From Nonlabens dokdonensis DSW-6 (lineage in GTDB: Bacteria > Bacteroidota > Bacteroidia > Flavobacteriales > Flavobacteriaceae): a DNA stretch of 64,000 nucleotides. Both the position numbers and the translations under genes were made by a program. The DNA lies in NCBI RefSeq assembly GCF_000332115.1, contig NC_020156.1:310001-374000 (forward strand), read 5' to 3'. The notes below the pieces were generated by a model. That model worked only from the letters and a program-made list of their open reading frames with translations, ran no database searches and had not been told where the DNA came from. This document shows positions 29,103 through 32,689 of the stretch, one piece after another (the stretch's first letter is position 1; the number at the start of each line of letters is the position of its first letter).

Positions 29103-29864
29103 TTAAGCTTCAACTTTTTTTGAAGACGTAACAGCTAGACTATAAATAACTAGACCAAATCCAATTTTGTTGATTGCATCACCAATGTTGTAAACTACGT
29201 CCATTGCTTCTTGTGCTGCTTTAGGATCTTCAACTAGTTGTAAACCGAATAATCCACCTTCAGTACCAAGGATATATCCTAATGGATAGATGGCCCATCC
29301 TACTAGTACAAACCAACATAAGATGTTGTGCGCTTTAAGAACTGCTCCACCTGCTGATGTAGCGAGTTTCTTTGCCTCACCGAACCATATCATGTATACT
29401 ATAATGAAGTAAGCGATTCCTGAAACAAGACCCCAAACCCATTGCATGGTAGGATTTCCTAATGCGATTACTTCTCCAAAGTAACCTGTTACTAGCATTA
29501 CTACAGACCAGAAAATTAATTTCCACATCAGTCCTAGTTTTGCACCAGCTACTTTAAGGATTAAATAGAATTCCACACACATTAACGGTACTGTTAAAGT
29601 CCAGTCTACATATCTGAAGAAAGTTGGAGAGCTATCTGTTGCAGCATAATAATCTCTCATGTAAAAATAATGCACCGCTGCTATGAAAGTAATTAGTCCA
29701 GAGACTAATACAGAGGTACGCCATTTGTTGTCAAACTGACTCAATGACAAAAAGAAAAAAGCACTTGCAGCCATCATGGCCATGCTCCCGATGAAAAATG
29801 TAAAACCTACATAATCATCTGTGGCCATTTTAGCCACTTCAAGTGTTGAAAGTAAAAAGTTCAT
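29103..29864 (-). CDS. Proteorhodopsin, light-driven proton pump
   Basis: A 253-residue seven-helix rhodopsin. The proton-pump triad Asp87, Thr91 and Glu98 (RYVDWTLTVPLMCVE) corresponds to the D97/T101/E108 pattern of gamma-proteobacterial proteorhodopsin. His65, which partners the acceptor, is retained, and Lys233 (DAINKIGFG) is the retinal Schiff-base lysine. The spectral-tuning position, equivalent to residue 105, is Met95, as usual in green-absorbing flavobacterial pumps. It exports protons in the light to build proton-motive force. The gene is divergent from blh, which supplies its retinal, and is followed by a strong terminator. Confidence 0.98.
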   Translation of the reverse strand: MNFLLSTLEVAKMATDDYVGFTFFIGSMAMMAASAFFFLSLSQFDNKWRTSVLVSGLITFIAAVHYFYMRDYYAATDSSPTFFRYVDWTLTVPLMCVEFYLILKVAGAKLGLMWKLIFWSVVMLVTGYFGEVIALGNPTMQWVWGLVSGIAYFIIVYMIWFGEAKKLATSAGGAVLKAHNILCWFVLVGWAIYPLGYILGTEGGLFGLQLVEDPKAAQEAMDVVYNIGDAINKIGFGLVIYSLAVTSSKKVEA

Positions 29865-29878
29865 AATTTAAGTTTTTA

Positions 29879-29942
29879 TGTTTAAGTAAAGATACGAAAG
29901 ATTAAACATAATTGTTTAACTTTGAAGTGTTAATATTAAACA
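29879..29942. promoter_or_regulatory. Dyad-symmetric four-half-site operator between proteorhodopsin and blh
   Basis: TGTTTAA at 29879-29885 and 29913-29919, and its complement TTAAACA at 29902-29908 and 29936-29942, give spacing 16-4-16, perfectly symmetrical about 29910.5. A blh-directed -7 element, TAACTTTG (29917-29924), overlaps one inner half-site. A rhodopsin-directed near-match, TATCTTTA (29894-29887), lies between the outer and inner half-sites of its side. This arrangement suggests one regulator controlling both genes. Confidence 0.65.
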
Positions 29943-29948
29943 AAAAAT

Positions 29949-30830
29949 ATGTCTAGGAAATTTCAGTTATATAACCTTATTATGGTACTGAGTTTTTTCT
30001 TTTTATGGATATCCTTTCAAATACCTGAAGCAATGGAGTTTGCATTAGGCTATTTTTTAATTCTTACGATAGGTGTAGGACATGGCGCAAACGATTTAAA
30101 GATTTATTTCAATGCTAGAAAATTAAACTTAAAGAAGACTTTATTATTTCTAGGGCTTTATTCTTTAATAGTTCTTGCAGGTACTGGTTTATTTTTTATC
30201 GTCCCAGAATTTATTTTAACGCTGTTTATAGTGATCAGTGGTTACCATTTTGGACAAGAGCACTTTGAAAAATATGAAATTAAAACCACCTGGTATTACA
30301 ACTTATTTGTAAGTGCTTACGGCTTAATGATTATACTTACCTTATTATACATTCATGCTCAAGAAAGTCTACTTATCATAAATGATCTACTAGGTAGCAA
30401 TCTAGAAGTAGAAGTATTGCTCTATCCATTGATAGCTTCGGTGGTGGTATTATTGCTGTGTTTCTTAAAATTCAGGCAGCAGTTTCAGTTAAAAGAGGTG
30501 CTGAAAGAACTGTTTTACCTACTCCTAATATTTACGGTTTTCTCAACCTCAAACCTTATTTGGGGTTTTGCTATATATTTTATTTTATGGCACAGTGTAC
30601 CTTCCATCTACAATCAAATTTGCTATCTGGAAGGAACAGTAAATTCAAATACCATAAAGACCTATATTAAGGACTCGCTACTTTATTGGATAGCTGCCCT
30701 TTTTTTTCTAGGTGTGTTATACTATTTCCTTAGCGACTATACCAGTCTATTCCTCAGTATCATCATCGCTTTTTTAGGCGGTATTACTTTTCCTCACGTA
30801 GTAGTTATGCATCAATTAAATAGCAAGTAG
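29949..30830 (+). CDS. blh: Brp/Blh-family beta-carotene 15,15'-dioxygenase
   Basis: A 293-residue membrane protein with about eight helices. It has the four histidine motifs expected for the iron site of Brp/Blh enzymes: GHGANDLKIYF, GYHFGQEHFEKYE, LWHSVPS and FPHVVVMHQ. The family cleaves beta-carotene into two retinal molecules, the chromophore of proteorhodopsin. The divergent position next to the rhodopsin gene with a shared 84-bp control region supports this. Beta-carotene synthesis genes are not in this window. Confidence 0.96.
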   Translation: MSRKFQLYNLIMVLSFFFLWISFQIPEAMEFALGYFLILTIGVGHGANDLKIYFNARKLNLKKTLLFLGLYSLIVLAGTGLFFIVPEFILTLFIVISGYHFGQEHFEKYEIKTTWYYNLFVSAYGLMIILTLLYIHAQESLLIINDLLGSNLEVEVLLYPLIASVVVLLLCFLKFRQQFQLKEVLKELFYLLLIFTVFSTSNLIWGFAIYFILWHSVPSIYNQICYLEGTVNSNTIKTYIKDSLLYWIAALFFLGVLYYFLSDYTSLFLSIIIAFLGGITFPHVVVMHQLNSK

Positions 30831-30891: not shown

Positions 30892-30907
30892 CGCTTTCGC
30901 GAAAGCG
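30892..30907. repeat. Dispersed palindrome copy 10 (intergenic)
   Basis: Perfect CGCTTTCGCGAAAGCG between the 3' ends of blh and the usp gene. The flanks are TTCT and GAAC, the reverse orientation of the common ATTC/AGA context. Confidence 0.95.
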
Positions 30908-31834: not shown

Positions 31835-32689
31835 TTACGCCGATTGATCTGGCGGCAAAATTAAAAATGGAACTTTAGAGTGATGTACAATTTTTTGAAC
31901 AACAGGTTTAAACATAAGGTTTTCAAAAAAGTTATGCTTGTTGCGCACTAATACCACCATGTCTATCTCATGAGTAGACTCATATCCTTTAATTGCCTCA
32001 AGAACATCTCTGCTTTCTAAAATATGGGTTAAGTGATGGTCGTTTTCAAAATACTCATCTAGTGAGTCTTTGTTTCCCTTTTGCTGTGATGTTAATGCCT
32101 GACCTTTATATACGTTTAAAAATATGAGCTCAGGAGAATAGTTATTTGAAATATCTTGTAATAATGGCAATCCATTTTGATACTTATTAATATTGTAATC
32201 TGTAGTAAATAGTATTTTATTAGGATCTTTAAAGACGCTACCTGCTGGTACGCCTATCACTGGTGTTTTTGCGGCTTTAATTACTTGCATAGTTTGGGAA
32301 CCAATAAAAACTTCGGTCAATCCAGATGCTCCATTTGTTCCCATAATTATCACATCGATATCATTCTCAACTACTATCTCTTCTATTTCTAGACTTAATA
32401 AATTAAATGAAGATCGTCCTTCAAAAGTATGCAAGGAATTAGCATACGTCGTAGACATTTGCTTAATGATCTCTTGAACTTTAGTCTCAGATTTTTCTTG
32501 AAATAATTGACCCAAATTCATGTCTAGTTCTGGATTATTTCCATAAGTCGTTGCGGTAAAAACGGCAACTGGTTGATAGGTGTTGAGTATTATAAACGTA
32601 CAATGTTGCTTCTTAAAAAGCTGTACTGCGTATGCAACAGCATTTATAGATGTTTCTGAAAAATCGGTAGGTAAAAGAATTGTTTTCAT
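31835..32689 (-). CDS. Universal stress protein, tandem UspA domains
   Basis: A 284-residue paralogue of the next gene, with the first Usp domain ATP motif GTNGASGLTEVFIGS and a degenerate second domain (LVRNKHNFFENLMFKP). The start is set at ATG 32689 (MKTILLPTDFS), because the frame upstream of it offers only a TTG three codons earlier and the family starts exactly here. It is the first gene of the two-gene usp unit. Confidence 0.9.
   Translation of the reverse strand: MKTILLPTDFSETSINAVAYAVQLFKKQHCTFIILNTYQPVAVFTATTYGNNPELDMNLGQLFQEKSETKVQEIIKQMSTTYANSLHTFEGRSSFNLLSLEIEEIVVENDIDVIIMGTNGASGLTEVFIGSQTMQVIKAAKTPVIGVPAGSVFKDPNKILFTTDYNINKYQNGLPLLQDISNNYSPELIFLNVYKGQALTSQQKGNKDSLDEYFENDHHLTHILESRDVLEAIKGYESTHEIDMVVLVRNKHNFFENLMFKPVVQKIVHHSKVPFLILPPDQSA

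Follow-up and report, generated by a model that had tools for sequence, protein, structure and literature searches.

A conserved, inverted 30-bp dyad at flavobacterial proteorhodopsin–blh promoters, probably read by a CarH/LitR-type MerR-B12 protein

How the proteorhodopsin pump and the enzyme that makes its retinal might be brought under common control is the question raised by a stretch of 64,000 nucleotides from Nonlabens dokdonensis DSW-6 (hereafter the window), in which the two genes diverge from one short intergenic region. The proteorhodopsin gene (29103..29864, minus strand) is an open reading frame of 253 aa that matches Pfam Bac_rhodopsin at 2e-40 and gave no match in an NCBIfam scan. 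The reading frame of blh (29949..30830, plus strand) encodes a beta-carotene 15,15'-dioxygenase of 293 aa, which matches NCBIfam TIGR03753 above its cut-off as well as Pfam BCD; the start codons of the two genes, at 29864 on the minus strand and 29949 on the plus strand, lie 84 bp apart. In Dokdonia, proteorhodopsin is reportedly raised by light. A literature search covering titles and the beginnings of abstracts, mostly outside the subscription journals, listed no paper that names the regulator or the operator of these two genes in Bacteroidota; an earlier description elsewhere is possible.

A sequence-only reading of the window had described this region as a perfectly symmetric operator of four half-sites with the −7 elements falling among them, and the positions and sequence bear out this arrangement. 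TGTTTAA stands at 29879-29885 on the plus strand, 29902-29908 on the minus, 29913-29919 on the plus and 29936-29942 on the minus strand, with gaps of 16, 4 and 16 bp and exact dyad symmetry about a centre at 29910.5. The heptamer is found 19 times in the whole window, fewer than the 28.7 expected from shuffles, so it is the arrangement that is special and not the heptamer. The half-sites form two exact matches to TGTTTAA-N16-TTAAACA, an element without strand, of which dyad A (29879..29908) lies over the proteorhodopsin promoter and dyad B (29913..29942) over the blh promoter. The −7 consensus of this phylum is TAnnTTTG, and each dyad holds a −7-like box: TATCTTTA (29894-29887, minus strand), which starts at offset 14 of dyad A and departs from the consensus in its last base, and TAACTTTG (29917-29924, plus strand), which overlaps the left half-site of dyad B.

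The same reading stood or fell with the conservation of the half-sites and their spacing in relatives, and both are clearly conserved. Blh loci were gathered from named genomes (64) and from a draw of 299 family genomes, 70 of which matched (30 + 40), making 134 in all; 128 of these had a usable divergent proteorhodopsin–blh region (the exceptions being L051, L069, L100, L163, L182 and L183), and 122 of the regions were distinct. An N16 dyad is present in exact form in 52 of the 122, with at most one mismatch in 86 and with at most two in 98, against means of 0.03, 0.4 and 4.3 in 40 dinucleotide shuffles of the region set. No other spacing between 6 and 30 gives more than 9 of the 122 regions with at most one mismatch.

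What is conserved, then, is one 30-bp dyad per promoter, each far beyond chance, and the four-part symmetry is partly incidental. A second dyad (at most two mismatches in each) occurs in 53 of the 122 distinct regions, and the linker between the paired dyads varies: it is 4 in seven regions, 5 in four, 10-11 in three and 13-16 in 35, and the dyads overlap in the remaining four. Because of this variation the 16-4-16 layout is only one recurrent variant, seen in 7 of the 53 with up to two mismatches per dyad, namely at the Nonlabens loci L020, L021, L084 and L085 and at three others (L094, L150 and L161), and the idea of a single four-half-site operator as the conserved unit was rejected. The half-sites of the original proposal are therefore conserved, while its unit shrinks to the 30-bp dyad. 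Linkers of 4-5 and 13-16 are suggestive of helix-turn phasing between paired dyads, which we do not claim, as three regions have 10-11. The position of the −7 box also recurs: in 48 of 98 first dyads read on the proteorhodopsin strand, a TAnnTTTG box begins at offset 14, next to the dyad's centre, and at sites with a gene on one side only it starts at offset 15 in 15 of 48; the box offset of dyad B is rare (2 of 54 later dyads).

The reading had also proposed a search for other occurrences of the dyad, and this was run in 60 genomes of the window's family, each at least 95% complete. Exact N16 dyads number 186, in 50 of the genomes, compared with 2 at N15 and 16 at N17, and the exact pattern reversed gave 7 as a backwards control. 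The window's own genome has the exact 30-bp dyad at four places, two of them being those between proteorhodopsin and blh. With at most one mismatch it has 14 places against 7 for the backwards pattern, so that its one-mismatch sites elsewhere are not all meaningful, and in some genomes such sites show no excess (10 against 10 backwards in G002). Since the backwards control comes this near to the pattern at one mismatch, exact sites alone were used genome-wide. The context of 74 of the 186 exact sites, in 70 loci from 19 genomes, was studied; 73 of the 74 lie outside open reading frames of at least 80 aa, and for 70 there is a gene within 300 bp that points away from the dyad.

These facing genes outline a candidate regulon, with families assigned from one representative per cluster. 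Counted by site, the 74 dyads face fasciclin genes in 18 cases, crtI in 13, a TetR_C_23 regulator in 12, mnmA (named by eye) in 8, a 142-aa protein without a Pfam match in 8, HSP90 in 5 and GLPGLI in 3, besides others, and the fasciclin, crtI, TetR_C_23, GLPGLI and 142-aa/DUF2805 operon genes together account for 54 of them. Often crtI is followed by a phytoene synthase gene, the TetR gene by ABC1 and the 142-aa gene by DUF2805. Among the 70 loci, similarity to the photolyase/cryptochrome family was found in 5 (two queries of this family match each other's genes and were counted as one), to folE in 9 and to flavin reductase in 8. The dyad is thus not special to the rhodopsin locus and is part of a wider regulon.

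Within the genome that the window comes from, dyads with at most one mismatch lie upstream of the following genes: 8 bp from the TTG that was taken to start a MerR-B12 gene in the crtI operon, 35 bp from folE, 1 bp from a flavin reductase gene that is followed by a DASH cryptochrome, 18 bp from GLPGLI, 47 bp from a fasciclin gene, and 121 bp from a run of three genes, the third of which belongs to the photolyase family. The last of these sites also lies 79 bp before a divergent gene. The dyad accordingly precedes crt, photolyase/cryptochrome and the regulator's own gene, the combination by which a LitR/CarH-type regulon can be recognised. Four further one-mismatch sites, at 2690892, 3110817, 291575 and 1098531 (L011, L013, L015 and L014), fall outside the clear regulon and may be due to chance, given that the backwards control yields 7. 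The match at L014 is inside the coding sequence of a second rhodopsin-like gene (named by eye; G000:C1:1098224), and since no dyad with up to two mismatches was found in the 250 bp before this gene, it may be outside the dyad regulon. At L005 (genome positions 32236-32336), two one-mismatch dyads stand side by side between two fasciclin genes.

The MerR-B12 gene lies directly before crtI (G000:C1:2618677-2619588, minus strand) and encodes 303 aa, with an N-terminal MerR_1 domain (PF13411) and a C-terminal B12-binding_2 domain (PF02607), both above the Pfam cut-offs. Compared by sequence with solved structures, the protein matches 3whp ('probable transcriptional regulator') first and Thermus CarH (5c8d) second, and CarH entries lead the fold matches of its predicted model (mean pLDDT 86) at an identity of about 20%. 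It scores 69.1 bits against the NCBIfam CarH equivalog NF052513, for which the cut-off is 400, and is therefore a relative of that equivalog and not a member. In the 30 best-scoring loci of 242 matching genomes, the own genome included, the B12-photoreceptor motifs Wx9EH and ExHxxG are kept without exception. The gene is common in the window's flavobacterial family and is present in other families of the class.

At the start of the MerR-B12 gene itself the dyad takes the form TGTTTAA-N17-TGAACA, which has the same 30-bp geometry as TGTTTAA-N16-TTAAACA; it is found with at most one mismatch in 29 of these 30 loci and with at most two in all 30. In 26 of the 30 the right half-site includes an in-frame start codon, while at L114-L116 and L128 a gap of 8-20 bp separates the end of the dyad from the MerR-B12 start. 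A similar closeness is seen at crtI-facing sites, 12 of 13 of which have the dyad ending 0-3 bp before the called crtI start (e.g. L217, L227, L236, L244 and L267). With the −7 box inside the dyad and the dyad at or near the start codon, the crtI and MerR-B12 messages may be nearly leaderless.

Of 26 diverged MerR-B12 copies in 23 chosen genomes (15 of other families and 8 of the window's family), 16 have a dyad (N16 or N17, at most one mismatch) within 250 bp. A search of the 23 copies that could be translated failed to find ExHxxG in 9 of them and Wx9EH in 2. The presumed recognition helix reads RKWE instead of RIWE in five diverged copies, and the half-site nearby is TTAGACA in four of these five; TTAGACA also occurs near two RIWE copies (G025 and G404), so that the pairing, noticed post hoc, is a weak hint. 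The TTAGACA half-sites near the four RKWE copies have a spacing of 17 in three cases. MerR-B12 lies near fasciclin genes in five RKWE copies and in G025 (L338 and L341-L345 together).

Dyad and MerR-B12 gene also travel together between genomes, although shared ancestry means that all of the following p-values overstate independence. Of 59 family genomes (G299 was left out), 47 have a MerR-B12 match at E<=1e-50, a cut-off chosen after the E-values had been seen; 46 of these 47 carry exact dyads, as do 3 of the 12 others (Fisher 1.7e-7). If any MerR match at E<=1e-10 is accepted, exact dyads are carried by 49 of 54 genomes with a match and by 0 of 5 without (Fisher 5e-5). Exceptions are G025, which has four exact dyads and only a diverged MerR copy, G028, with one exact dyad, and G020, in which a close MerR copy is accompanied by one-mismatch dyads (13 against 2 backwards) and by none that is exact. 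A hand count over 148 genomes of the phylum gave exact dyads in 25 of the 31 genomes that match the protein at E<=1e-20 and in 2 of the 117 that do not (Fisher 2e-20). At the proteorhodopsin–blh region, for which 66 of 70 Blh genomes were entered and N16 or N17 dyads with up to two mismatches accepted, 45 of the 54 genomes that have a MerR match carry the dyad, as do 5 of the 12 that have none (Fisher 0.006). Dyad loss without a MerR match is therefore partial (7 of 12 against 9 of 54 despite MerR), and some of the five genomes that keep the dyad without a match are incomplete.

Among the closest described counterparts of this protein are the CarH proteins of Thermus thermophilus, Bacillus megaterium and Myxococcus, MerR repressors of carotenoid genes that bind adenosylcobalamin, block the promoter in the dark and are released by light (PMC8156234, PMC9304148). 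The MerR-B12 protein resembles them in its domain order, in Wx9EH and ExHxxG, in its best fold match, in the adjoining crtI and in an operator placed over the promoter, and differs in its identity of only about a fifth, its sub-threshold NCBIfam score and a regulon that includes proteorhodopsin and blh. The repeats bound by CarH have the consensus TnnACA, and the Thermus and Bacillus proteins bind three or four 11-bp direct repeats in tandem (PMC9304148, PMC8156234). TTAAACA contains TAAACA, which fits this consensus, as does the TGAACA at the MerR start; unlike the direct repeats, the half-sites of the dyad are inverted, 16 bp apart and 30 bp overall, and no two or three tandem 11-bp TnnACA repeats were found in any of the 122 proteorhodopsin–blh regions.

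Closer in form is the inverted, palindromic promoter site of class II LitR, T(G/A)TACA-N12-TGTA(C/T)A, described for PplR1 of Pseudomonas putida and PmlR of P. mendocina, the light-inducible genes of which include those for photolyase and the cryptochrome-like CryB, folE and the regulator's own gene (PMC9758184). That set is much like the present one as far as the available text describes it, whereas half-site and spacer differ from TGTTTAA-N16-TTAAACA, a LOV protein serves as the light sensor, and rhodopsin genes are not named among the targets in the part of the paper at hand (PMC9758184). In the flavobacterium Chryseobacterium lacus light raises the crt genes, and its authors speculated that a gene beside crtB acts like CarA/LitR (PMC7064467); the portion of that paper available describes neither an operator nor a tested regulator. 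A MerR-family gene comes first in the crt cluster of Nonlabens (PMC11855829), and the text of a cobalamin photoreceptor mining study (PMC11796333) contains none of the terms Bacteroid, Flavobacter or rhodopsin.

From the dyad's distribution, its half-sites and the genes it precedes, we consider it highly probable that a CarH/LitR-type MerR-B12 protein reads the dyad before a set of genes regulated together, probably by light; the additional step in which B12 and light govern that protein is argued by analogy with its relatives, and we think it somewhat more credible than otherwise. Each 30-bp dyad would be the operator of a repressor which would occupy the two half-sites, TGTTTAA and TTAAACA, in the dark, probably in an adenosylcobalamin-bound form, and would shut the promoter by lying over the −7 box between its ends; the position of the box suggests such repression by occlusion, and fits repression without proving it. 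The genes shut off would be proteorhodopsin, blh, crtI-crtB, photolyase/cryptochrome, folE, the fasciclin genes and MerR-B12's own gene, and light, by breaking the B12 cofactor, would release their promoters. The suggestion that one regulator acts on both the pump and its retinal gene is supported in this form by the conserved dyad over each promoter, with the qualification that such a regulator would serve a wider regulon and not this locus specifically.

The origin of the dyads in chance, or as byproducts of promoter boxes in AT-rich DNA, has next to no probability and was rejected on the spacing, backwards and shuffle controls: the half-sites are indeed AT-rich and TGTTTAA is common, yet 186 exact N16 dyads stand beside 2 at N15 and 16 at N17 in the same genomes, and shuffles of the 122 regions average 0.4 where 86 are observed. 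The TetR_C_23 regulator, as the reader of the dyad with MerR-crtI merely as a target, has more to be said for it, as 12 of the 74 exact dyads face its gene, in 9 of the 12 at 28-33 bp upstream, and a dyad before its own gene (the TetR_C_23-ABC1 operon) is the look expected of autoregulation. Against this, all 7 genomes that have a strong MerR match and lack TetR carry dyads, compared with just 2 of the 6 that have TetR without a strong MerR match, one of these two (G007) having a diverged, crtI-linked MerR beside an exact dyad; across the 59 genomes TetR and dyad are weakly associated (41 of 46 against 8 of 13, Fisher 0.03), and the half-site matches the CarH consensus. Genome co-occurrence thus disfavours TetR_C_23, which we rate as very improbable in this role.

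Another regulator of the light or oxidative-stress response could bind the dyads while the MerR-B12 gene only travels with the regulon. Co-occurrence does differ from binding, and in Thermus a CRP/FNR protein acts together with LitR; that several families of the class have the dyad beside the MerR-B12 gene itself, and, weakly, the post hoc match between RKWE copies and TTAGACA half-sites (4 of 5), make such a regulator improbable. It is unlikely to a lesser degree that, in a variant of the favoured explanation, a CarH-like protein reads the dyad and is released by a partner instead of by its own light sensing. Release of this kind is known in the family, by the LOV protein for class II LitR of Pseudomonas and by CarS for CarA of Myxococcus, in the accounts available; the palindromic class II site is closer in form to the dyad than are the CarH direct repeats, and 9 of 23 diverged copies have no recognisable ExHxxG. 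The 30 of 30 closer copies with both B12-photoreceptor motifs speak for light sensing by the MerR-B12 protein itself.

The dyad is thus real and general in the window's family, and is best explained as a CarH/LitR-type operator. What is new is its geometry, a wide inverted 30-bp dyad, together with the place of proteorhodopsin in the candidate regulon, in which pump, chromophore, carotenoids and photorepair are outlined together. Regulator and operator form a testable pair for the light control of flavobacterial proteorhodopsin. If the proposal holds, light could switch on the pump and retinal genes through a B12-type light-sensing repressor, and, B12 being the cofactor, the supply of this vitamin would tune the light control of phototrophy; on balance we favour the view that a B12-dependent photoreceptor repressor with a wide inverted operator ties proteorhodopsin-based phototrophy, the making of retinal and carotenoids, and photorepair to light and B12 supply. 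The CarH/LitR family would then gain an operator geometry useful for structural work and optogenetics.

Two minor observations concern the window itself. When it is compared with the Nonlabens dokdonensis genome of the locus set (L020), proteorhodopsin matches at 99% and Blh at just 80%, which is uneven for neighbouring genes. The palindrome CGCTTTCGCGAAAGCG is present in 13 copies in the 64 kb (between window positions 396 and 58813) and in none of 100 shuffles; it is a REP-like repeat, one copy of which lies downstream of blh, at 30892-30907.
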